Below, in pieces: positions 1,038 to 53,776 of a stretch of DNA of 64,000 nucleotides; position 1 is the first letter of the stretch; every line of letters begins with the position of its first letter. A program made the position numbers and the translations under genes. The DNA lies in the IMG/VR virus record IMGVR_UViG_3300022921_000002, positions 157,448 through 221,447 of that record, one strand, 5' to 3'. Under the pieces are notes generated by a model. That model saw nothing but the letters and a program-made list of their open reading frames with translations. It was not told the DNA's origin and did no database searches. The stretch is from a virus.

Positions 1038-4000
1038 ATGGCAGACGAAAGCAATAAGGACAAAAAGAAAAAGGTTAAGGGATTTAAAGAATTTGATCCT
1101 GGAAACTATATTGATATTGAACCTACTATCAATGAAGCAAAAGTAGGCGAGGTTGTTATTTCTTGGGGACGTATGAACCCTATTACAACTGGGCACGAAA
1201 AACTTATCAATAGAGTTTTAAATGTAGCAAAATCAAAGAATGCTATTCCTGCTGTATTTTTAACACATTCTCAAGATAAAACAAAAAATCCATTGTCATA
1301 TAATGATAAGATCAAATATGCCGAGGTAGCATTTGGTAAAATCATTAAAAGATCAACTGCCAAGACAATCATTCAATTAATGCAGCAGTTACAAAAGAAA
1401 TTTAAAAAGGTAACTCTCGTTGTTGGTTCTGACCGATATAAAGAGATGGATACATTGCTTAACAAATACAATGGTAAAGAATATAAATTTGATGAAATAG
1501 AAGTTGTATCCGCAGGTGCTAGAGATCCTGACGCTGAAGGTGTTAAAGGAATGTCAGCATCAAAAATGCGTGAGTATGCTGTTTCAGATAATATCAAAAA
1601 GTTTACTACAGGATTACCTAGTAAGCTAAAAACAAGCGCGGCCGACATTATGGCCAGCATTAAAAAGGGAATGGGAATGTCGGAAGAATATAACGAAGAT
1701 AACTTTATCGAAGAAGATGAATTAGACGAAGCTTTGACTCGACAGCAGCGTATTAAACGCGGCCGTCAAATGCGAAGAATGCGTGTTAAAATGAAACGAG
1801 GTCGGGAAAAGGCAAAGCGGCGCCGTGCCAATATTGATGTTTTGAAAAGAAGATCAAGAAAAGCAGCACGTAATATAATTAAAAAGCGTCTTGCTGGTAA
1901 TAAACGATATGCTGATATGGAGCCTGCGGAAAAGGAACGTATTGATAAACGCATTGAAAAGATTTCAAAACAACGTATTGATAACCTGGCAATTAAATTG
2001 TTACCTTCTGTTAAAAAGAAAGAACGTGAGAGATTACAAGCACGTCATAATAAGAATGAGTCTGTTGATCTGAATGAGATGTGGGGTGCATATGTAACTA
2101 AGCGACCACATATGCTTATGGATAAAAACAACAAACCAAAGTTTGATAAACGGTTTAAGATGTTTAAACCTAAACAAGTTACAGAGATGAATGAGTTTGA
2201 TATTGAAGATATCGTTGAACTTATGGAATCAGTTGAAAAATTTACCGAAACAACAGGTAAATATTACACAGGTGTTGCTAAAAATAAGAAAGATGACCGT
2301 GAAGATCATTTTGAACGTAATGCTAAAAAGGCTGATGATGATCCTTCAGCATATAGGCCAGCACCAGGTGATAAAGAAGCAAAGACAAAAGAATCAAAGC
2401 ATACAAAAAAAGCACGAGCGATGGGTTACACTGAAGAATTTGATTTTTTAGGTGAAGATGCCGCAGGCAAATCATTAGCTGATAAAGCAAAGAAATCTGA
2501 CATGCCTGCAGGGATTTTACGTAAAGTATATAACCGTGGTGTTGCCGCATGGAAAACAGGTCACCGCCCAGGAACAACACCTGAACAATGGGGACATGCT
2601 CGAGTAAATTCATTTATTACTAAATCCTCTGGTACATGGGGTAAGGCTGATAAAGACCTTGCTGCAAAGGTTAATGAATCAGTAGAAACAGTTAATGAAG
2701 TTAGGAGAAACGCTATGGCTGCCAAGCCTAAGAACACTAAAGCAGAACGTGAGAGTAGACTAGCACAGAATATGAAAAAATTAAAGGATATGCGTAAATC
2801 TGATAAGTCTTGGGGTAAATCAAGCGCATTTGATTATCACGAGGAAGTAGAACTTGACGAATTAACAGCAGCTGAGAAAAAGCTAGTAAATCAAATGTAT
2901 GATAAAAAAGGCAACCTCACACCACATGGTAAAAAAGTAATGAACCACGGTAAGAAAAAAGGTGATAAAGGTTTTGTTGAATCGTTAGATGATAAGTTTG
3001 AAGCATTCATCTCACTTAATGAAGCCGCAACGCCTCAAATGAAAAAGGCAGCTGCAAGTATCGAAGCATATGCAAAGAAAAGCGGTGGCATTGATAAAGC
3101 AGACTTTATGAAAGCAGCAAAGATGCTATCATCTGGTAATGCTGGTATAAAATTCGTTAAATTTGTAGATGATCTTGATACAGAACCACGCGAATGGTTA
3201 ATCACTAATCTTGCTAAGACTATGGGTAAACAAACAGTTGAAAAAATGTTTAAAGTTAAAATCCGTGAAGAAGTAGAACTAGATGAAGCCGAAATGAGCC
3301 TATATGATAAAATAAAGGCAGCAAGAGCAAACCCATCACCAGACAAGCCTGCAAGAGGTCGTGGATCAAAAAATCGTAATCCAAAAACTTATGACCCACG
3401 CAAAGCACTAGACAAAGAAGATGATCGTCTTCAAGGTATGGTAAAGAAAAAATTGAAAAAAGAAGAGTTTGAACTTGATGAAGATCTTACACACCAGACA
3501 GTAAAGCCACCGAATCATACTAAAAAGTTTTCTGGGAAAGATTCTCGTGACACACAAGACACATCGGCGAATGAGTGGGATGCGCCAGGTAATAAGCGTC
3601 ATACTGTAACGAGTAGTCAAGCAGATGCTCATGATAAAACTGCTGCACATCACAATGAGGTTGCGGATGCTCATACAAAGGCAGGCGAAAAATCTTCTAG
3701 TCCAACTTTACAAAGATTGCATCACCAAGCCTCAGTCCATCATAAGAAGGCAGCAGAAGCACACTTTAATGCTTCTCATTCTAGTTCAGGTGCAGATAAA
3801 GATGGTTCTATTCAAAAAAAGGCAAAGGATCTGCATATGGCATACCATCTAACTATGCATGCTAACAAGATGTCTCAAGAAGTAAGAAATAAGGGTTCTA
3901 AAGCAAAGCGTATCCTTGAAGAAGTAGAAGAGCTTGATGAAGATGCTAAAATGAAAAAGCAATCTGATGATAACCTAAAAAGTTTACATAAGCAATTCAA

Positions 4001-4301
4001 AGGTCAAGATCAAAAAATGCCATCAACTCAGCATATGATGAAGCGTATCACTAAAGAAATGAAACGCCGTAATATGGGTGAGTCTGAAGAAGCAGCAAAG
4101 TTAGCATCTGTTGCTAACGGTGGTGTTCAGGATAAAGAAGATAAATTTAGAAATGCATTAAACCGTGTTCGTAATAAAAAATCAATGAAAGATGAAAGCT
4201 CTTGTGGATCATCAAAGAAAAGAAATGAAGAAGCTGGCGCAGGCGAAGAAGGTACAGCTAAATTAGTTAAAAGACTAAAGAAGGATACACCTAATGCATA
4301 G
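1038..4301 (+). CDS. Large mosaic protein: nucleotidyltransferase domain plus basic and phage-linker domains, putative head polyprotein
   Basis: 1087 residues. Residues 35-205 form an HxGH-superfamily nucleotidyltransferase: GRMNPITTGHEKL (44-56) and MSASKMRE (172-179) match the HxGH and ISxxxxR motifs. Residues 232-345 are extremely Arg/Lys-rich. Residues 474-545 look like the phage domain I know as DUF5824 (KVYNRGVAAWKTGHRPGTT). Residues 856-945 are His/Ala-rich. The domains are separated by acidic linkers ending in [LI]xE at E33, E231, E347, E473, E608, E662, E750, E815 and E968, which fits the T4 prohead-protease consensus. I infer a head-packaged, processed polyprotein; a non-virion multidomain enzyme is the alternative. 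Start at 1038 has an AGAGGT ribosome site and a late promoter upstream. Confidence 0.7.
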   Translation: MADESNKDKKKKVKGFKEFDPGNYIDIEPTINEAKVGEVVISWGRMNPITTGHEKLINRVLNVAKSKNAIPAVFLTHSQDKTKNPLSYNDKIKYAEVAFGKIIKRSTAKTIIQLMQQLQKKFKKVTLVVGSDRYKEMDTLLNKYNGKEYKFDEIEVVSAGARDPDAEGVKGMSASKMREYAVSDNIKKFTTGLPSKLKTSAADIMASIKKGMGMSEEYNEDNFIEEDELDEALTRQQRIKRGRQMRRMRVKMKRGREKAKRRRANIDVLKRRSRKAARNIIKKRLAGNKRYADMEPAEKERIDKRIEKISKQRIDNLAIKLLPSVKKKERERLQARHNKNESVDLNEMWGAYVTKRPHMLMDKNNKPKFDKRFKMFKPKQVTEMNEFDIEDIVELMESVEKFTETTGKYYTGVAKNKKDDREDHFERNAKKADDDPSAYRPAPGDKEAKTKESKHTKKARAMGYTEEFDFLGEDAAGKSLADKAKKSDMPAGILRKVYNRGVAAWKTGHRPGTTPEQWGHARVNSFITKSSGTWGKADKDLAAKVNESVETVNEVRRNAMAAKPKNTKAERESRLAQNMKKLKDMRKSDKSWGKSSAFDYHEEVELDELTAAEKKLVNQMYDKKGNLTPHGKKVMNHGKKKGDKGFVESLDDKFEAFISLNEAATPQMKKAAASIEAYAKKSGGIDKADFMKAAKMLSSGNAGIKFVKFVDDLDTEPREWLITNLAKTMGKQTVEKMFKVKIREEVELDEAEMSLYDKIKAARANPSPDKPARGRGSKNRNPKTYDPRKALDKEDDRLQGMVKKKLKKEEFELDEDLTHQTVKPPNHTKKFSGKDSRDTQDTSANEWDAPGNKRHTVTSSQADAHDKTAAHHNEVADAHTKAGEKSSSPTLQRLHHQASVHHKKAAEAHFNASHSSSGADKDGSIQKKAKDLHMAYHLTMHANKMSQEVRNKGSKAKRILEEVEELDEDAKMKKQSDDNLKSLHKQFKGQDQKMPSTQHMMKRITKEMKRRNMGESEEAAKLASVANGGVQDKEDKFRNALNRVRNKKSMKDESSCGSSKKRNEEAGAGEEGTAKLVKRLKKDTPNA

Positions 4302-4566
4302 CTTCAAGCAACATTTGGAAGCATGCTGGTCTGATTACAAACAGGTTGGCATGAAGAAAAAAGGTGACAAGATGGTACCTAATTGTGTACCAAAGAATGA
4401 AAGTATTCCACCTGAAGTTGTGGGTGCGGCAATTGCTGCTCCTATGGTTGCACAAGGTATTAAGCATACCGCAAAAGGTGTTGCCAAAGCAGTTAAAGGT
4501 GCTATTAAGGCACGTAGAGCTATTAAGAATGCAGGTCAACGAATTGCTGATAAGGTAGTAAAATGA
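4294..4566 (+). CDS. Small putative internal head protein with targeting peptide (MHSFKQ)
   Basis: 90 residues, first of four tandem small genes with related N-termini. It begins MHSFKQHLEA, close to the T4 internal-protein targeting peptide (MKTYQEF type). Residues 15-33 (YKQVGMKKKGDKMVPNC) are a short motif I recall from other marine phage proteins. The C-terminal half is Ala/Lys-rich and predicted helical and basic. It overlaps the large upstream gene by 8 bases and the next by 4, indicating translational coupling. Function as a head-packaged protein is inferred. Confidence 0.6.
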   Translation: MHSFKQHLEACWSDYKQVGMKKKGDKMVPNCVPKNESIPPEVVGAAIAAPMVAQGIKHTAKGVAKAVKGAIKARRAIKNAGQRIADKVVK

Positions 4567-4850
4567 AAACATTTAAACAATATATCTTTGCTGAGCATAC
4601 ACAATGTGGAACACCTGATTGTTGTGGTGAATGTGATACCGCCGTTACCGAAGGCTCAGAAACCTGGGAAGCTGGATATAAGCGCCGTGTTGTAAAAACA
4701 ACTGATCCTGACCATAAAGAGGCAGGACATAATTGGCGTATTAAAGGTAAAGATAAATCTCATCTTACTATTAAATTATATAAAGAAAAGCCTTCACAAC
4801 AAGAATTCAATAAACAAATGAAAAGAGTTGCAGGACACGAGTTCGGATGA
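4563..4850 (+). CDS. Small putative internal head protein with targeting peptide (MKTFKQYI)
   Basis: 95 residues starting MKTFKQYIFAEH. A Cys cluster (CGTPDCCGEC, about 15-24) follows the leader and could bind metal. Residues 35-95 (TWEAGYKRRVVKTTDPDHKE to the RVAGHEFG end) form a compact basic domain of a type seen in marine phage mosaic proteins. Both ends overlap the neighbouring genes by the four bases ATGA. Packaging into the head is inferred from the leader; no enzymatic motif is visible. Confidence 0.6.
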   Translation: MKTFKQYIFAEHTQCGTPDCCGECDTAVTEGSETWEAGYKRRVVKTTDPDHKEAGHNWRIKGKDKSHLTIKLYKEKPSQQEFNKQMKRVAGHEFG

Positions 4851-5140
4851 AAAGCTTTAAGCAATATATTTCTGAAGGTATCATGGTTAAACTGATTCGT
4901 GGTAAAGGCCAGGATACTTTAAAAATGAAAGACACTAAAGAAAAGAGTTGGGTTGAATTACGCGGCAAACCTAATTTTGAAACTAAATATGATAAAAGGG
5001 ATCCGTTACATAAAGCAATTACGGCGCTAGGTAAATCGGCAAGCATATCTGATTTTATGAATGGTGATGAAGTAAGTATAAATCCAAACCATCCTGACGG
5101 TAAGAAAGCGTTGGCAACTATAAAGAAGTTAATGAAATGA
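4847..5140 (+). CDS. Small putative internal head protein with targeting peptide (MKSFKQYISE)
   Basis: 97 residues starting MKSFKQYISEGI. I8-S9-E10 exactly fits the [LI]xE cleavage rule of T4 gp21 protease, so removal of a 10-residue leader is predicted. The remainder is basic and ends in DGKKALATIKKLMK. No known enzymatic motif. ATGA overlaps with both neighbours make it part of a coupled four-gene set. Confidence 0.6.
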   Translation: MKSFKQYISEGIMVKLIRGKGQDTLKMKDTKEKSWVELRGKPNFETKYDKRDPLHKAITALGKSASISDFMNGDEVSINPNHPDGKKALATIKKLMK

Positions 5141-5403
5141 AAACATTTAAACAACATATGGAAGCAACATACCAAGGTAAAGAGGTTAAGTTAAACAAAC
5201 CTATGGCGGGTGATGTTGCTAAATCAAAAGTATTCGTTGATCCTGATGGCGACGGTGTTGCTAAAAAAGTTAATTTTGGTGACAAGAATATGACAATTAA
5301 AAAGCATATTCCAGGTCGACGTAAATCTTTTAGAGCAAGACATAATTGCGATAATCCTGGGCCAAAAGATAAGGCACGATATTGGTCTTGTAAAGCCTGG
5401 TAA
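5137..5403 (+). CDS. Small putative internal head protein, DUF5872-like domain
   Basis: 88 residues. It begins MKTFKQHMEATY, a member of the targeting-peptide family, with M in the P3 position before E. The rest contains VDPDGDGV (about 32-39, possible calcium loop) and a C-terminal RRKSFRARHNCDNPG...ARYWSCKAW segment resembling the phage domain I recall as DUF5872. Last of the four coupled small genes. Its role is unknown; a cationic, head-packaged, perhaps injected protein is the inference. Confidence 0.6.
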   Translation: MKTFKQHMEATYQGKEVKLNKPMAGDVAKSKVFVDPDGDGVAKKVNFGDKNMTIKKHIPGRRKSFRARHNCDNPGPKDKARYWSCKAW

Positions 5404-5441: not shown

Positions 5442-5786
5442 ATGTATAGTTTTTCAGAACATAGTCTTATTGAACACGTTGAGGCACATCTCATTGAGAA
5501 TGATCTTGTACTTGATAATATAGATGACGAACAACTTGACGAAATCATCGGTATGGCCGCAAAGGCTGTAGGGGCAGTTGCTAAGGTAGGTGCAAAAGGT
5601 GTTCGACGAGCATTAACAAATAAACAAGGTCAATTCCGTTTATCAACTGCTGGGCGTAATACGGCACGTGCTAATAAAGCAAAACGTATTAATGATAGAG
5701 CAAATGCTATCCGTGATAGAAAAACCACAAAGGCGAATATTGACAAGGCCAGAGAAAACTTACGCAAAGCAAGAGAGGGAAAATAA
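5442..5786 (+). CDS. Putative virion-associated small basic protein
   Basis: 114 residues. The N-terminal 34 residues are acidic and end QLDE (L32-D33-E34), a possible prohead-protease site. The remaining 80 residues are strongly basic (Lys/Arg/Ala) and predicted helical, so cleavage would release a DNA-binding-like peptide. The design resembles T4 internal proteins, but the N-terminus (MYSFSEHSLIEH) differs from the MKTFKQ group. It is followed one base later by the next gene. Function unknown. Confidence 0.55.
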   Translation: MYSFSEHSLIEHVEAHLIENDLVLDNIDDEQLDEIIGMAAKAVGAVAKVGAKGVRRALTNKQGQFRLSTAGRNTARANKAKRINDRANAIRDRKTTKANIDKARENLRKAREGK

Positions 5787-7085: not shown

Positions 7086-8222
7086 ATGGTCGTTGATCTA
7101 TTTTTAGTTTACCAATTCATCCGCCGTTTGGCTACACCATTTAATAAGTGGGAAGCATATAAGCAAGGTATTATTGATAAAGATGGTAAAGTATTAATCA
7201 AATCAAAAGATTTTACAAAAGGTTCTCAACGTAAAGCGTGGGGAATTTTTGATAGAATGATTGCTAACCTTAAAAAGTTGTTGGCAAAGGTACCTGGCGG
7301 TAGTTCTCAGTTTGCATCATATGCTGCCGCATTGTTTCTAATTAAAGAATACAAACATTTTACCGATGAATCATTACTAAATGAAGAATGGACTGATGAA
7401 CAATTAGATGAATCAATGCATTTATTTCATATTAGATATAATCATTATACCATACTCTCCGAAAATGTCAATGGTTATTTTGATGAACTTGATGAAAAAC
7501 TTAAAGCATCAGATGATATGGGTGTGTGGGTAAAAGATTTTCAGAAATCAGATGCACCACAATTCAAAGGCAAATCTCAAAAGAAAAGACAACAAATGGC
7601 CGTTGCTGCAAAGCTTGACGCAATGGATGAAGAATTACAAGAAGGCGCATTTAAAAGAATAGCACAAGTGCAATCAAATAAAGCAGATCGTATGGCTTCA
7701 AACGACAAAAAAGGTTTGGATACGTATAAGAAAAAACCAAAAACTGAAATTAAAGAAGCTGCTTCTCCACGTTGGAAAAAAGCTGGACCAAACGGCGAAA
7801 TACAAGCCACTATTGGTGGAAAGAAATATCAAATAGAAAAATCCTTAGATCACAATGAACGCCATAAAGGTGAGTGGAAAGTTATGGTTTGGGATAAGCG
7901 TAGAAACAGCTGGGAGTGGGAAACCACTGAGTACGGTAAAGCCAACGCTAAAGATTGGATTATGGATAGACTAAAAGAATCAGCTACTAATATGCGTAAT
8001 ATAAAACTTGTTAATAAAATCAAGAAGTCTGGTGTTGTAAAATCTGGTTCTATGTCACAGAATGATCCCAAAAAATCTGTTGATACAAAACCTGAAATTA
8101 CAGAAGAAATGCCAGCCAATGCAGTAAGTACCGGTGCAATTGCTAATATGGATGCGTCGGGAATTGATAACAAAAAGAAAAAGAAAAAGATTAAGGATAT
8201 GATGAGGAGAACCCTACAATGA
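7086..8222 (+). CDS. Putative virion structural protein with several [LI]xE sites
   Basis: 378 residues. Residues 1-92 (VVDLFLVYQFIRRLATPFNK through the GGSSQFASYAAALFLIKE segment) form a domain I recall from T4-like cyanophage virion proteins. The rest is a linker mosaic: VKDFQKSDAPQFKGKS (149-164) and a folded segment about 225-297 rich in Trp. [LI]xE sites at E100, E109, E137, E186, E224, E299 and E340 fit prohead-protease processing. It ends in a Lys-rich run and overlaps the endolysin start by 4 bases. Head assignment is inferred. Confidence 0.6.
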   Translation: MVVDLFLVYQFIRRLATPFNKWEAYKQGIIDKDGKVLIKSKDFTKGSQRKAWGIFDRMIANLKKLLAKVPGGSSQFASYAAALFLIKEYKHFTDESLLNEEWTDEQLDESMHLFHIRYNHYTILSENVNGYFDELDEKLKASDDMGVWVKDFQKSDAPQFKGKSQKKRQQMAVAAKLDAMDEELQEGAFKRIAQVQSNKADRMASNDKKGLDTYKKKPKTEIKEAASPRWKKAGPNGEIQATIGGKKYQIEKSLDHNERHKGEWKVMVWDKRRNSWEWETTEYGKANAKDWIMDRLKESATNMRNIKLVNKIKKSGVVKSGSMSQNDPKKSVDTKPEITEEMPANAVSTGAIANMDASGIDNKKKKKKIKDMMRRTLQ

Positions 8223-9076
8223 TTACTATAGAGCAATTTAGCGCTATGATCCCAACTAACAAAGATCCACAACCGTGGTTTGATGCGGCAGTGGAAAAGT
8301 TTGATGAATATAACATTAATACTCCAAATAGAATTGCAGGCTTTATGGCACAGTGTGCTCATGAGTCAGCAGACTTTACACGTTTAACTGAAAACCTTAA
8401 CTATTCGGAAAAAGCATTGAACTCGGTGTTTAGTCGCTATTTCGGAAAAGGAAAACGAAATGCTAAAGAATACGCTCGAAACCAGGAAAAGATTGCAAAC
8501 TATGTCTATCAAGACGAGTTTAGATCCAAGCGAGGAGCTTTGGGAAACACTGAACCCGGGGATGGCTGGCTATTTAGGGGTAGAGGTATCAAACAGCTTA
8601 CGGGCAGAAATAATTACGCGGCTTTTGGAAAGTCCGTTGGAATGTCAGCCGAGGAAGCTGCAGAATATGTAGCAACACCAAAAGGTGCTATTGAGTCAGC
8701 ATGCTGGTTCTGGGCATCTAATAAACTCGACAAATATGCCGATAATGGTGATAATGTGGGGTTGACAAAAAAGATTAATGGTGGTACAATTGGATTAGAT
8801 GACCGTAACCGTCGTTGGGAATCAGCCTTAGCCATCCTCGGTGGTGAAATGCCTGCACCTAAAAAAGCAGCACCTAAGAAAGCTGCAGGTGTGCGTACAC
8901 TACGCAAAGGTATGAAAGGTGATGACGTTGCTAAAATGCAAAAGGCAATTGGTGTAGGAGCTGATGGCGATTTTGGATTTGGAACTCTTACTGCTGTTAA
9001 AAAATGGCAAAAGATGAACGGATTGGTTGCAGATGGTATTGTAGGTCCTGCTACACAAGCAAAGATGTTTAAATAA
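8219..9076 (+). CDS. Endolysin: GH19 chitinase-like domain plus peptidoglycan-binding domain
   Basis: 285 residues. Residues 1-212 are a GH19-type lysozyme/chitinase domain: H48-E49 in AQCAHESADF supplies the catalytic acid and FRGRGIKQLTGRNNY is the substrate-cleft motif. An Ala/Pro/Lys linker (216-228) leads to a PG_binding_1 domain (230-285, KGMKGDDVAKMQKAIGV and DGIVGPATQ). No signal peptide, so export would need a holin. It sits just upstream of the spanin genes. Cleaves the glycan backbone of host peptidoglycan at the end of infection. Confidence 0.9.
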   Translation: MITIEQFSAMIPTNKDPQPWFDAAVEKFDEYNINTPNRIAGFMAQCAHESADFTRLTENLNYSEKALNSVFSRYFGKGKRNAKEYARNQEKIANYVYQDEFRSKRGALGNTEPGDGWLFRGRGIKQLTGRNNYAAFGKSVGMSAEEAAEYVATPKGAIESACWFWASNKLDKYADNGDNVGLTKKINGGTIGLDDRNRRWESALAILGGEMPAPKKAAPKKAAGVRTLRKGMKGDDVAKMQKAIGVGADGDFGFGTLTAVKKWQKMNGLVADGIVGPATQAKMFK

Positions 9077-9113
9077 ATAAATAAATGACGGAATTAAACA
9101 AAGGAGACACAAA

Positions 9114-9326
9114 ATGTCACTAGAGAAAATTGTAGAAGCGGCAATGTCTGAAAAGCCATTGGATCTGAAAGAAGCATTTGAAGCTGAAGTTGAAGAGCGT
9201 ATTATGGCTGCATTGGCAGAGAAATACAAAAAAGCAATGGAAGCAAAAGATGAAGACGACGACGATGAAGATGATGACGATGAGGACGAAGATGATGATG
9301 ACGATGAGGACGAAGACGAAAAGTAA
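9114..9326 (+). CDS. Acidic prohead-core-like protein (gp67-like)
   Basis: 70 residues: a helical first half (MSLEKIVEAAMSEKPLDLKE) and a tail of about 24 almost pure Asp/Glu residues. T4 gp67, a small prohead core protein with an acidic tail, has this build, and the SEKPLDLKEAFE pattern resembles marine gp67 homologues. In T4 gene 67 lies between genes 20 and 21; here it lies inside the lysis region. AAAGGAG ribosome site. A generic acidic peptide is the alternative. Confidence 0.5.
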   Translation: MSLEKIVEAAMSEKPLDLKEAFEAEVEERIMAALAEKYKKAMEAKDEDDDDEDDDDEDEDDDDDEDEDEK

Positions 9327-9339
9327 GTCTTCTTAACAT

Positions 9340-9789
9340 ATGGCAAAACTATATCTGTTACTTATTGTCTGTGGTTTAATTGGTGGTGTAGGATATGGTG
9401 CTAAATCATATTATGAATGGTCGGAAGCAACCATTTCAACACTTCGTACTAATAACGTTCAATTAGCATCTGCGGCGGAAACTCTACAAAATACTGTAGA
9501 CACAATGGCCGCAGATGCAGAACGTAACGAAAAACTCAATCAAAACCTGACAGCGCAACTAAATGAATCACGAGAGTATTTAAATACTTTGCGTGCTAAA
9601 TTTGCGCGAATTGATTTAACTATGGAAGCGCTAACTGACGCGCAAAATTTGGAAGAAAGGGTAAACAATGCTGTTGAAAGACTTATCAGTGATATTGCCG
9701 ATGAAACTACTCCTCCTAGTGCTGTTGATGATACTCCTAACAGCATGCTCGGGGAGGACAGTGGAACCGACAGTAGTAACGTCGACTGA
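9340..9789 (+). CDS. Inner-membrane spanin (Rz-like)
   Basis: 149 residues. One N-terminal membrane segment (LYLLLIVCGLIGGVGYGA) is followed by a long coiled-coil periplasmic domain, the topology of i-spanins. Its 3' part contains, in another frame, the start of the lipoprotein gene at 9668, the classical overlapping Rz/Rz1 arrangement. With the endolysin nearby it would disrupt the outer membrane at lysis and implies a Gram-negative host. Sequence-level homology not tested. Confidence 0.75.
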   Translation: MAKLYLLLIVCGLIGGVGYGAKSYYEWSEATISTLRTNNVQLASAAETLQNTVDTMAADAERNEKLNQNLTAQLNESREYLNTLRAKFARIDLTMEALTDAQNLEERVNNAVERLISDIADETTPPSAVDDTPNSMLGEDSGTDSSNVD

Positions 9790-10045
9790 ATACATCCAGC
9801 AAAACATTCCTATTCAAGGTAGGCCGGCTAAAGTAGATTTTCCGCCTGTAGATTGGTATGTTATCACCGAAGAAAATTTGGAAGAAAAGATTGATGAAAT
9901 TGAAGCTCAACAAGGATCTGTTGTTGTTTTTGCTGTAACATCAAAAGGATACGAAAATCTTGCATTAGGTATTGCTGAATTGCGTCGCTATATTAATGAA
10001 CAAAAAGCGATAATTGTGTACTACGAGGAAGCATTAAAAGAATAA
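9668..10045 (+). CDS. Outer-membrane spanin lipoprotein (Rz1-like)
   Basis: 125 residues, starting out of frame inside the i-spanin gene and running 256 bases beyond it. A hydrophobic leader ends in LLTACSG, a clean lipobox with Cys as the lipidated residue. Start at 9668 follows AAAGGG; an alternative ATG at 9701 (MKLLLLVL) gives a more standard leader but lacks a ribosome site. The mature part is longer than most Rz1 proteins. Partner of the i-spanin. Confidence 0.75.
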   Translation: MLLKDLSVILPMKLLLLVLLMILLTACSGRTVEPTVVTSTEYIQQNIPIQGRPAKVDFPPVDWYVITEENLEEKIDEIEAQQGSVVVFAVTSKGYENLALGIAELRRYINEQKAIIVYYEEALKE

Positions 10046-10048
10046 ATA

Positions 10049-10077
10049 TTGACAATACTATAGATTTGTGATACATT
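10049..10077 (+). promoter_or_regulatory. Sigma70-like promoter (TTGACA-17-TACATT)
   Basis: TTGACA at 10049-10054 and TACATT at 10072-10077 with a 17-base spacer, followed directly by a strong AAGGGGAG ribosome site. It would drive the small GTG reading frame at 10091 and the coiled-coil/TM gene at 10159. Confidence 0.55.
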
Positions 10078-10090
10078 TAAGGGGAGCATA

Positions 10091-10195
10091 GTGTTTGTTT
10101 TCTTTTTTTATTTAATCACAGGTGATTTGCAGGCACCTAAAGTAAAAAGGCTAGAAAATTGGCACAATCTAATTGGGAAACAGATATCGCCCTAA
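10091..10195 (+). CDS. Candidate 34-residue hydrophobic-start peptide
   Basis: GTG start four bases after GGGGAG, the best ribosome site nearby, just downstream of a promoter. It encodes 34 residues beginning with a Phe-rich hydrophobic run (VFVFFFYLI) and then a polar tail. It overlaps the start of the next gene in another frame. It could be a leader peptide coupling translation of the TTG-started gene at 10159. Too short for family recognition. Confidence 0.3.
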   Translation: MFVFFFYLITGDLQAPKVKRLENWHNLIGKQISP

Positions 10196-10647
10196 TAAAA
10201 TCGGATATCAAGCAAATACAAAAATTCTTTAACAGAGTTGAAGATTCTATGGACATGATGGCAGAACTGTCTAAAAACGTTGCTGTTCAAAATGAAGTCC
10301 TAGATAACACTAAAGATAAGTTAGATGATGTTGAAAAGCTGTGCGAAGAAACAAAACGCACCGATGAACTACGCATGAATGTTTTAAGTGATAGACTTGA
10401 AGAGTATAGACGATCTTCAAGAGAGGATCATCAACGTTTAGCAGATCATAATGCAGATAAGCGAAATAACCACGTCAAAGAAATATTAGACAAAATTGAC
10501 AACATGGAAAAATCAGTACATCAAAGAATTAACGACCAACAAAAAAAGATCAATCATCTTGAGAACTGGCGTTATTATATGATGGGTATTGGAGCTGTTG
10601 TTTTAATTTTCATTGCGAGAGTAAATTGGCCAGAATTATTTGGTTGA
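10159..10647 (+). CDS. Coiled-coil protein with C-terminal membrane anchor, possible lysis accessory
   Basis: 162 residues from a TTG codon preceded by AAAAAGG. Residues 1-125 are long helical coiled-coil; residues 133-153 (YYMMGIGAVVLIFIARV) are a single membrane segment near the C-terminus. This layout recalls XhlA-type holin accessory proteins, and it lies just after the spanins, but no holin with several TM segments is seen here. Lysis function is inferred from position. Confidence 0.55.
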   Translation: MAQSNWETDIALIKSDIKQIQKFFNRVEDSMDMMAELSKNVAVQNEVLDNTKDKLDDVEKLCEETKRTDELRMNVLSDRLEEYRRSSREDHQRLADHNADKRNNHVKEILDKIDNMEKSVHQRINDQQKKINHLENWRYYMMGIGAVVLIFIARVNWPELFG

Positions 10648-50797: not shown

Positions 50798-51763
50798 TTA
50801 TTTCAAATGTGTTTTAGCATTAAGAGCCTCGACGAGAGCATTAACTGTATAATAATCCGATGCAGGTTTAGCTACAACGGTATCTTCTACAATGATTTCG
50901 TCTTCCTCAACATTAGCATCTTCCGTTACGGCTTTTGCTTCTGCAAAGAATGATTCCTTAAGAGTATTAAGGTTTGCGGTGTACTCTTCGATATTATTAA
51001 AATCGAGCTTTTCAGCAAGAACCTTCATTCTTTCCTGTTGGGTCAGAGTAAGATCCTCAGTGACTTCTGCGAACACTTTTCCGGCTTGCAAAGAAGTGAT
51101 CTCTTTTTGCAATGCAATGTTCTCGTCAATACGAGTATTTGCATCAGTTTTCAATCCTTCAACTTCTTCTTCAAGCTCAGCAACAACATCAATGGTATCT
51201 TCATTGATTGCAATGTTGTGCTCTTCAAAAAGTCCTTTCAGACCGTCCATCAACGATTCTGCCATTTCAACCTTAATGCCGGCTTCGATAGCAACTTCGT
51301 TTTCTGTCATCCACTCTTCTACAACATAGTCGAGATAGGAATCTAGGTTTTCAACAAGGCCATTGACAGTTGAGTCAATTGAAGATTTCATTTCTTCATC
51401 AAGCTGTGTTGAATATTCTTCATTCATTTTGGCAGCTTTTGCCGCAGCACTTTCATTTACTGCTGCTTCAAATACCAAAGTTACTTTTGATTTAAACTCT
51501 TCTGAAAGATCCATGCCTTCAAACATTGCTGAGATTGATTCGTCAAGTTCAACGACTTCTTCTACAACAACTTCTGCATCAGCAGATTCTGCATCTTCTT
51601 TCATTCCAGGTGTTACTGCTGCAATTTTTTCAGGTGTTGGATCAACCTTCTTTGCTACATCAGCCTTGTGTTTTTTTGCCGTACCGCCTTTTGGTGTAAC
51701 AGGATCTTCAACTGAAGAAACACCATCGTCGGCTACAAACTTTTCTTGTAGTTCATCTGACAT
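50798..51763 (-). CDS. 22: Prohead core scaffolding protein gp22
   Basis: 321 residues, highly acidic and helical, between 21 and 23 as in T4. [LI]xE sites occur early (L5-Q-E7) and in VVELDESISA, so the scaffold is expected to be cut by gp21 into small peptides before DNA packaging. Long coiled coil about 190-260. Preceded by a late promoter and AAGGAG ribosome site. Confidence 0.88.
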   Translation of the reverse strand: MSDELQEKFVADDGVSSVEDPVTPKGGTAKKHKADVAKKVDPTPEKIAAVTPGMKEDAESADAEVVVEEVVELDESISAMFEGMDLSEEFKSKVTLVFEAAVNESAAAKAAKMNEEYSTQLDEEMKSSIDSTVNGLVENLDSYLDYVVEEWMTENEVAIEAGIKVEMAESLMDGLKGLFEEHNIAINEDTIDVVAELEEEVEGLKTDANTRIDENIALQKEITSLQAGKVFAEVTEDLTLTQQERMKVLAEKLDFNNIEEYTANLNTLKESFFAEAKAVTEDANVEEDEIIVEDTVVAKPASDYYTVNALVEALNAKTHLK

Positions 51764-51811: not shown

Positions 51812-52513
51812 TCATTTTCTGAGTGATTCGATAAATTTATTCAACATAGCAGCTGCTTGTGCTTCATCAATCCGCTTGACAACTGTTTTGTATTGTGTTT
51901 CAACTTCTTGTTGAATTTCTTCAATCACTTCAGCAACCTGTTCTTGAACCTGCGCAGGCAACCAAGAAGATGAAGCAATGTCATAAAAGTATTCAACATT
52001 TTCCATAATACCATTTACGAAACAATTAGGGCCAGACGGATCGGTTACAACATCAACAGTAGCTAAATGGAAATCTGATTGAACTTCCATGATACCATCT
52101 TTTGTTGGTTTAACTGAACCAAGTCCACGTGTTGATACACCGACCTGAACTCCTTCGTCAATGAATGTCTTAACAATTTCACCCATTGGAGTACCAAGCA
52201 ATTTTGCTTTACCCATAAAGTTTGAACCATCTCTCCTCATTTCAGTAATCAAATGAGATACACGGTCGCCGTTTACGGTTGGTCCATCAGGGTGACCAAG
52301 TTCCCCAAGAGCTCGTTTGGTTTCAACAAAATCTTTATTGTATCGAACCATTTCTTTCTCAAGGATTTCGGATGGGTAACATCTACCGTTGCGATTGTTA
52401 ATGTCACCTTGCATAAAGATACCTTCAATGAAGTAGGACTTTTTGCCAGTTTCTTCATTTAATTCTGTGCTCGTTGAGGCACTTTCGTTAAAAATTTCTG
52501 TAATAAGTTTCAT
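51812..52513 (-). CDS. 21: Prohead protease gp21
   Basis: 233 residues. GELGHPDG (His74) and GVSTRG (Ser127) are the catalytic motifs of the herpesvirus-assemblin-like protease. The N-terminus MKLITEIFNE resembles the T4 Alt leader, and L18-N-E20 is a self-cleavage candidate; I237-like sites near the end (RIDEAQ) also fit. It cleaves scaffold, gp23 and internal proteins after [LI]xE. Confidence 0.93.
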   Translation of the reverse strand: MKLITEIFNESASTSTELNEETGKKSYFIEGIFMQGDINNRNGRCYPSEILEKEMVRYNKDFVETKRALGELGHPDGPTVNGDRVSHLITEMRRDGSNFMGKAKLLGTPMGEIVKTFIDEGVQVGVSTRGLGSVKPTKDGIMEVQSDFHLATVDVVTDPSGPNCFVNGIMENVEYFYDIASSSWLPAQVQEQVAEVIEEIQQEVETQYKTVVKRIDEAQAAAMLNKFIESLRK

Positions 52514-52567: not shown

Positions 52568-53776
52568 TTATTGAAGTGCTTCTCTTGCAAATCCTACAAT
52601 TTCGTCAAAACCTGCTTGATCTTTTTTCATAACGGATTCCATTTGTTTACGGTTTTTTGTATTCAAACCTTTAAACATTGAATTAAGCAATTTTGCATCT
52701 TGAGGTGAAATCCTAGTTGATTTACCGTTGTCAAATTTAAAATTACCAGATTTTACTGCTTCGTCAATCGTAGCTGCTTCATTTTTCTCCCAAGGGGCTT
52801 TTTTCAATGTGACTGCTTTTTTACCCTCTTTGGATGGCGCTGTTGCCTTATCCAATTCTTTTGCAAGTGCAGCACTTTGGCTTTCTTTAACACCACCGCC
52901 AAGAGCCTTTTTGATTAACTCATTTGCTTTAACTTTTTTGACTTCCGACATTTTATCCATGCCATGGTCATCTGTTTGTTTTGCTCTTGTTGTTCTCATA
53001 ACTGTGCGAGTTTTGCCATCAGGACCAGTCATAGTTACTGGTTTTTTTGTAGCAGCTTGAGTTGTTTCCTCAAGTTCTTCGCCCATTGACATTACTTCGG
53101 CTGTTGCATAACTGTAAAGTGTTTGCATTTCTTTTGCCACACCTGCCAATTTGTTTTGAAACCATTCTTCAGGATCTGATGTTTTTGACACATATGCCGC
53201 AATACCTTGCATTGCGTGTGACATTGAACGCAAAGCATTCATCATCATTGGCTTTTCTTCCATTGGGTTTTCAGCAAGATCAACATCTTCTTTCATAGAA
53301 TTTTTATATAGATCCAATGCTTTTGCATATTTTGGATTTTTCATCATACGTTTTGATTCACCGTGATCTGGATTATCGTGTGCCATACGGACCGTAGGCT
53401 CATCCAAGGAATGCTTTTTCATATGTTTCTTATATGCATCAAACTTCTTAGGATCGACGGTCTTGCCAAAGGATTTACTCATTGGTTTCATTGAACGTGA
53501 GATCTCATCAATTTGTTTTGCTTCTTCGCCTAACTTACGACCGCCACCTGCATCTGAACCAGTTTTCTTGATATATGCTGAGTCATATTTTGCATCGGTG
53601 CCATCATCGGCAGGGCGCTTTTTCATAGTTTTACCTTTGATTTCACCAGTAAAAACTGCGTCAGGTGCAACCGGGTGTTTAACTGTTTCAGCATCGTGCA
53701 TATCTTTAAAGCGATTATTTTCATCGGAGCGGTTATGCTTCGATACTTCAGCTAGTTTTTGTTTAAAAGACTTCAT
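52568..53776 (-). CDS. Internal head protein with targeting peptide, between 20 and 21
   Basis: 402 residues, basic, where T4 has genes 67/68. It begins MKSFKQKLAEVS: L8-A-E10 is a possible cleavage site, and the leader matches those of the small genes at 4563-5140. Other sites are QIDE|I and TIDE|A. The rest is Lys-rich with Met-rich helices about 175-240. I infer a head-interior protein that is processed during maturation. Confidence 0.7.
   Translation of the reverse strand: MKSFKQKLAEVSKHNRSDENNRFKDMHDAETVKHPVAPDAVFTGEIKGKTMKKRPADDGTDAKYDSAYIKKTGSDAGGGRKLGEEAKQIDEISRSMKPMSKSFGKTVDPKKFDAYKKHMKKHSLDEPTVRMAHDNPDHGESKRMMKNPKYAKALDLYKNSMKEDVDLAENPMEEKPMMMNALRSMSHAMQGIAAYVSKTSDPEEWFQNKLAGVAKEMQTLYSYATAEVMSMGEELEETTQAATKKPVTMTGPDGKTRTVMRTTRAKQTDDHGMDKMSEVKKVKANELIKKALGGGVKESQSAALAKELDKATAPSKEGKKAVTLKKAPWEKNEAATIDEAVKSGNFKFDNGKSTRISPQDAKLLNSMFKGLNTKNRKQMESVMKKDQAGFDEIVGFAREALQ

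Follow-up and report, generated by a model that had tools for sequence, protein, structure and literature searches.

In phage T4, the prohead protease gp21 cuts after [LI]xE, the internal proteins are headed by a 10-residue capsid-targeting sequence (CTS) that is cut after such a site, and gp22 is a classical multi-cut substrate of gp21 (PMC9026906). Enzymes have been found in virions of cyanophages. The cytidylyltransferase gp154 of S-CREM2 was detected by mass spectrometry in CsCl-purified virions (PMC10665884), the NMNAT of S-SCSM1 was detected in virions by mass spectrometry (PMC9602691), and virion NMNAT is also cited for S-CBWM1 and S-SZBM1. It was suggested that an injected NMNAT may sustain NAD early in infection (PMC10665884, PMC9602691). 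Here, we describe a 1087-aa ORF of a marine T4-like phage, which probably encodes internal (core) head proteins as one modular precursor for maturation by gp21.

The window, that is, the whole stretch of DNA analysed, is the final 64 kb of a 221,447-base virus record. The major head protein shares 66-67% identity with its counterparts in Sinorhizobium phages phiM12 and phiN3 and Stenotrophomonas phage DLP6, and cyanophages are the source of most database matches to the 1087-aa protein. Homologues of gp20, gp21, gp22 and gp23 are all encoded in the window, and translation of the window gives an unbroken frame for the ORF. A sequence-only reading of this DNA had proposed a head polyprotein and had pointed to a gp21 gene, which we confirmed. 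The genes concerned are as follows (a slash marks a putative cut site).

1038-4301, plus strand: whole candidate polyprotein ORF, 1087 aa; open frame, homologues in related viruses
51812-52513, minus strand: gp21 prohead protease homologue, the expected cutter (PHROG 207, E 1.7e-73)
50798-51763, minus strand: gp22 scaffold homologue (PHROG 237), with the sole other EEVVELDE/ linker of the genome
49420-50745, minus strand: gp23 major head protein by homology, probable cut SLLSE/AAP

Thus, a gp21-type protease and a gp22 core (PHROG 207 and 237), which a T4-type internal protein calls for, are found in the same genome. Between the portal and gp21 homologues, i.e., in the place of T4 gp67/gp68, there is a 402-aa ORF (52568-53776, minus strand), which starts with CTS-like MKSFKQKLAE/ and has the inner sites QIDE, VDLAE and TIDE. 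It gave no Pfam match and no PHROG match, and is possibly a second core polyprotein. Elsewhere in the window, a 70-aa ORF (9114-9326, plus strand) contains 24% Glu and has an Asp/Glu run at its end.

The chain was divided into the following segments, all on the plus strand.

1038-1136, plus strand: leader, aa 1-33, targeting-like GFKEFDPGNYIDIEPTINE, ending at E33; disordered, at the CTS position of shorter homologues
1137-1730, plus strand: NMNAT/NadD-like nucleotidyltransferase, aa 34-231, with TTGH and SASKMR, ending at E231; Pfam, PHROG and structure match
1731-2078, plus strand: Arg/Lys-rich helical module, aa 232-347, net charge +29, ending at E347; a separate gene in several relatives
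2079-2456, plus strand: aa 348-473, holding the first half of DUF5824 (Pfam), ending at E473
2457-2678, plus strand: aa 474-547, second half of DUF5824 (TGHRPGTTPEQWG); a CTS-headed free gene in relatives
2679-2861, plus strand: small module, aa 548-608, ending HEEVELDE/; 66% identical at another position in relative locus L013
2862-3023, plus strand: LTAAEK module, aa 609-662, ending with internal, CTS-like KFEAFISLNE/; from comparison with relatives
3024-3287, plus strand: AATPQM module, aa 663-750, ending REEVELDE/; 94-97% identical over exactly 88 aa elsewhere
3288-3482, plus strand: AEMSLY module, aa 751-815, ending KEEFELDE/; 92% identical in relative locus L123, with other neighbours
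3483-3941, plus strand: LTHQT His-rich module, aa 816-968, ending EEVEELDE/; 83-90% identical in unrelated proteins
3942-4301, plus strand: C-terminal module, aa 969-1087, and stop; from comparison with relatives

The unlike domains that had been named from the sequence were all recovered. DUF5824 was matched at aa 408-540 (Pfam, E 1.1e-16), the Arg/Lys-rich segment is as basic as listed above, and the His-rich segment contains 16 His. The full-length AF2 model (48 sequences, mean pLDDT 68) has well-predicted blocks at about aa 34-216, 232-340 and 666-744, with low-confidence stretches between them. Among isolated phages, neither segment 663-750 nor segment 816-968 was matched, and therefore there is no annotation to borrow for them.

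The nucleotidyltransferase was recognized by Pfam (CTP_transf_like, E 5.9e-5) and PHROG (3041, E 3.6e-83), and its AF2 model matched NadD/NMNAT structures. GRxNPxxxGH and GxSASKMR are conserved in the enzyme family, and TTGH and SASKMR are intact here. Modelled separately, the enzyme had a pLDDT of 88 and its best Foldseek matches were NadD/NMNAT; CoaD and FAD synthetase folds scored nearly as well, so NMN/NaMN is not singled out as substrate. A sequence search of the PDB with the nucleotidyltransferase, as a single sequence and as a profile, gave no useful match, and the fold assignment is thus based on AF2 and Foldseek. According to this model, aa 34-231 have the Rossmann-like fold and the [HT]xGH and SxxxxR-type motifs of an NMNAT/NadD-type enzyme. 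Its role in a new host is possibly NAD supply.

The sequence-only reading had named nine cut sites, E33, E231, E347, E473, E608, E662, E750, E815 and E968, and each of them is indeed [LI]xE. There are 15 [LI]xE in the ORF, including six more (E226, E394, E397, E744, E961 and E962), versus 8.2 expected from its own composition (shuffles, p = 0.011). Window proteins pooled are also 1.5x over their own shuffles, and the density in the ORF, at 1.38 per 100 aa, does not differ from the median of the window, which is the outcome that the reading itself had named as counting against it. The raw density is ordinary, so the numerical argument from motif count fails and we rejected the raw count as evidence for a polyprotein. 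The type of site is another matter. Nine acidic [LI]xE were counted where 0.58 were expected, and none of 5000 shuffles reached this number; with seven distinct acidic sites, the ORF ranks first of the 272 in the genome. Across these 272 ORFs (71,137 residues), matches to the strict linker [DE].?[VFE][DE]L[DN]E are confined to this ORF (five) and gp22 (one). Seven of the nine named sites are located at most 5 residues from pLDDT <50 (43% expected, p = 0.04), the exceptions being E662 and E968. In the AF2 model, E968 falls within a predicted helix and E662 at the end of one, which indicates that not all named sites need be used. E473 falls within the DUF5824 span.

Comparison with relatives revealed what the linkers separate. 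We compared the segments between sites first with ORFs from 26 related viral loci and then with those from 168, and found 118 proteins with at least two modules, in 31 module orders; 209 of the 232 inter-module gaps hold [LIVM]xE. Segment 663-750 precedes, instead of following, segment 609-662 in some chains (94-97% identical), and it also occurs in separate proteins of 485 aa and 255 aa. For segment 816-968, identity is 83-90% within proteins where it has other neighbours. At the start of the AATPQ/AATPA module, the upstream flank is fully variable except that its last residues are [LIVM]xE, as in VELDE/AATPQ, SLNE/AATPQ, FIDE/AATPQ, EMNE/AATPQ, HLDE/AATPQ and NIIE/AATPA. At the DNA level, the module is identical from the first codon after GAA and the preceding DNA differs. 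Hence, several [LI]xE sites lie between modules and are kept in relatives, as expected of a gp21-cleaved polyprotein. The claim that modules are separated by gp21-type sites is thus supported indirectly, by the [LIVM]xE found where modules meet in relatives, and fails as far as it leaned on the ordinary number and density of the motif.

Breakpoints were defined as 994 context-distinct junctions in 120 ORFs; [LI]xE lies at most 4 residues from 287 of them, versus 103 expected from the same proteins (2.8x). In controls, the enrichment was 0.67x for [LI]xK, 0.78x for [LI]x[AGS], 1.02x for [LI]xD, 2.3x for Ex[LI] and 2.3x for any acidic pair. The signal is thus due in part to acidity, with a further contribution from the exact motif. 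Better sequence evidence than the breakpoint count comes from profiling the flanks position by position. In 92 non-redundant flanks at module starts, P1 is Glu in 85% and P3 is Leu, Val, Ile or Met in 70% (Leu or Ile in 50%), P2 is mostly Asp, Asn or Glu, and information declines upstream; breakpoints and flanks were both taken from phages related to one another, which limits their independence. A CTT-GAT-GAA-like stretch recurs at linkers, but linkers with other codons (CTTAATGAA, ATTGATGAA, ATGAATGAA, ATAATTGAA and ATTAACGAA) obey the [LIVM]xE rule as well. We rejected the idea that the linkers are mere DNA recombination joints because the rule survives different codons. A constraint at the protein level is likelier, and a DNA joint and a protein constraint can both hold. 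Judged from these alignments, the chain is modular, and its cassettes are exchanged between sites that carry an [LIVM]xE signature.

The linkers resemble the targeting peptides of free genes. The leader of the 1087-aa protein, GFKEF...PTINE/, is 33 aa long and loosely like the T4 CTS; it failed the strict CTS pattern, which shorter homologues pass. Leaders of relatives end xLDE/A, and enzyme homologues start with MINSFSQYLVEE, MSFKSFAEYVTEE, MKSFNAFLTEA, MKNFSSFLTEA (S-CREM2 gp154) or MKSFLQFLKEA (S-SCSM1_91). In relatives, the second half of DUF5824 is a free gene directly after MKSFKGFISE/ (then DATG), and the Arg-rich module is a free gene directly after MLSFKQFVSE/ (then VLDA). In relative locus L006, MIKFNQFIDE/ stands inside a chain before AATPQM, where the window has KFEAFISLNE/. 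A linker can thus stand where another protein has a targeting/cut peptide, and cleavage at either would leave the module with an identical mature N-terminus. Of all the arguments for cutting at the linkers, this equivalence of linker and CTS as cut sites, which is evident at the sequence level, is the strongest. A full CTS copy as the general linker was rejected, since full internal copies (F..FI..E) were in only weak excess at junctions (21/994 versus 11.9 expected); most linkers are of the shorter ELDE type. Downstream of the chain, six small ORFs follow on the same strand.

4294-4566, plus strand: orfA, CTS-like start MHSFKQHLEA/; matches an internal module of relatives' chains
4563-4850, plus strand: orfB, CTS-like start MKTFKQYIFAE/; partial match within the Melnitz chain
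4847-5140, plus strand: orfC, CTS start MKSFKQYISE/G; CTS kept in relatives though residues vary
5137-5403, plus strand: orfD, CTS-like start MKTFKQHMEA; internal module of the Melnitz chain
5442-5786, plus strand: orfE, start MYSFSEHSLIE; fused to the C-terminus of the 485-aa protein in locus L007
5668-6351, plus strand: orfF, RVGELDE/ and His-rich tail; homologue of virion protein S-SCSM1_92

Thus, orfA, orfB and orfD, which are free genes here, match internal stretches of the 650-aa chain of Methylophilales phage Melnitz (MelnitzEXVC044M_18). Other cultured relatives, each with the protein concerned, are Pelagibacter phage HTVC008M (gp130), Sinorhizobium phage phiM12 (gp159) and Stenotrophomonas phage DLP6 (AAY80_068). 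The GTG start of orfF overlaps orfE, and its true start is probably the downstream ATG of MDTNTVREAI; orfF also contains an EF-hand-like stretch, DADIDNDGDVDNSDEY. Outside the window, a DUF6267 protein (E 1.8e-107) at record positions 152350-153579 (L180:15850-17079) starts with MKKFSTLLNE/A and has a ligase-like KWDGAPA motif. Its homologues in DLP6 and Melnitz are also CTS-headed (MMKFTQFLAE). From these motifs, it is possibly a packaged nucleic-acid ligase-like enzyme.

Homologues connect this family to the virion. S-CREM2 gp154 and the S-SCSM1 NMNAT are homologous to aa 31-256 and 33-217 of the window protein, respectively. Neighbour genes 89, 90, 92 and 93 of S-SCSM1 are annotated virion proteins, and S-SCSM1_92 is a 520-aa mosaic with KEEVELDE/R that is homologous to orfF. 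This KEEVELDE-linked multi-module neighbour was itself detected in virions by mass spectrometry (PMC9602691). The packaged SAM hydrolase gp6, kinase gp14 and NMNAT gp154 of S-CREM2 are all CTS-headed. The strict CTS pattern, which follows the T4 CTS, is found in six annotated genes of S-CREM2, five of which encode virion proteins (hypergeometric p = 0.003; the pattern was drawn up with the N-termini already known). The S-CREM2 authors noted that carry-over of abundant proteins is possible in virion detections (PMC10665884). They found a Cas9-like nuclease in the virions and could not tell its virion presence from carry-over (PMC10665884). We observed that this nuclease, gp12 (7704-10313), has RFASFMAE/A after a short N-terminal extension, which suggests directed packaging. 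The idea of a virion-internal protein with a packaged nucleotidyltransferase gains indirect support from homologues, through published mass spectrometry and CTS N-termini, and loses the argument from motif number.

We propose that a single N-terminal targeting leader would bring the chain into the prohead core, where gp21 would cut after [LI]xE of the acidic linkers during head maturation. Cutting would free the NMNAT/NadD-like enzyme, the Arg/Lys-rich, DNA-binding-like piece and several small modules, and the freed pieces would remain beside the packaged DNA and accompany it into the next host. The chain probably arose by fusion and swapping of genes each with its own capsid-targeting peptide, so that old targeting/cutting sites became linkers. 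That this chain is cut, which of its sites are used, and that the pieces are retained, injected and play a role in the new host are what we infer. It is about an even bet that marine T4-like phages run cargo cassettes in general, in which a module between [LI]xE linkers is packed in fixed ratio, released by gp21, injected, and exchanged at protease-site joints.

There is a smaller chance, which we regard as unlikely, that the ORF encodes a packaged multi-domain internal head protein from which the leader alone is removed, the inner linkers being uncut flexible spacers and relics of gene fusion. Acidic pairs are generally enriched at junctions and some sites lie in predicted helices, as this would have it, and most mapped cuts in SPN3US remove N-terminal propeptides (PMC10052503). 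However, uncut spacers do not account well for P1 Glu and P3 Leu/Val/Ile/Met being kept across different codons and linkers, nor for the identical motif ending the removable CTS of free genes, and many such sites are cut in T4 gp22, gp67 and gp68.

Those T4 proteins raise another explanation, that the ORF is a core/scaffold protein whose small peptides mostly leave the head, so that nothing is delivered. The linker is common to gp22 only, many modules are small and basic, and T4 core-protein fragments mostly leave the head. We nevertheless consider it very improbable, as the chain contains a conserved enzyme with intact motifs whose homologues are retained in mature virions. The virion homologues also count against a cytoplasmic NAD-metabolism enzyme with long variable tails, in which the sites occur by chance and there is no link to the head. 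The products of phage NAD genes generally work inside the infected cell, and the raw motif density is ordinary; but CTS starts are found throughout the family and module junctions fall at the sites, and we give this explanation the least credence of all.

If the chain is a gp21-matured precursor, it would be a simple way of loading many cargo proteins in fixed ratio, for which T4 gives each protein its own leader. The sequence rule (CTS, or [LIVM]xE/ after an acidic linker) could be used to predict which of the many 'hypothetical' genes in marine T4-like phages have products that are carried in the virion and arrive first in the host. It marks the packaged SAM hydrolase, kinase and NMNAT of S-CREM2 and, in looser form, the Cas9-like nuclease, and puts gp21 cut sites of marine phages within direct test.

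Among known systems, polyvalent proteins (Iyer et al. 2017, PMC5512222) likewise contain many unlike domains, are thought to be injected with DNA and are sometimes processed, whereas they are defined by ArdC-N, zincin peptidase and other domains and are suspected of self-processing; the cutter here would be the prohead protease. None of their signature domains (ArdC-N, zincin peptidase, DarA, ParB-like) was found by Pfam, which gave only CTP_transf_like and DUF5824, and we rejected membership on domain content. Ejection proteins of phiKZ/SPN3US-type giant phages are internal proteins that a gp21-like protease processes behind short xxE motifs, as proposed here; however, their mapped cuts remove propeptides, and the literature examined on them describes no chain releasing several modules. 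The virion NMNAT/cytidylyltransferases of cyanophages (S-CREM2 gp154, S-SCSM1 ORF91, S-CBWM1) share the homologous domain and the gene neighbourhood and start with a CTS, but are 286-409 aa without the long module chain, and their reports mention neither CTS nor polyprotein. T4 gp22, gp67 and gp68 have many gp21-cut [LI]xE sites, and gp22 of this genome has the EEVxELDE linker in common with the chain; their fragments are structural and mostly leave the head, in contrast to the conserved enzyme with retained homologues here. In T4 IPI, IPII, IPIII and Alt, a targeting peptide, an [LI]xE cut and cargo in the head go with gp21 and gp22, as proposed for this chain, whose genome has both genes; the T4 proteins have one leader and one cargo per gene, whereas the modules of this chain are lined up behind a single leader and separated by sites. 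In the open-access literature that was searched, we found no account of a CTS-type polyprotein from marine T4-like phages, and the following are already known individually: CTS packaging with gp21, multi-cut core proteins, virion NMNAT, and injected proteins with several domains. We therefore count the chain as a new variation on T4 internal-protein packaging.
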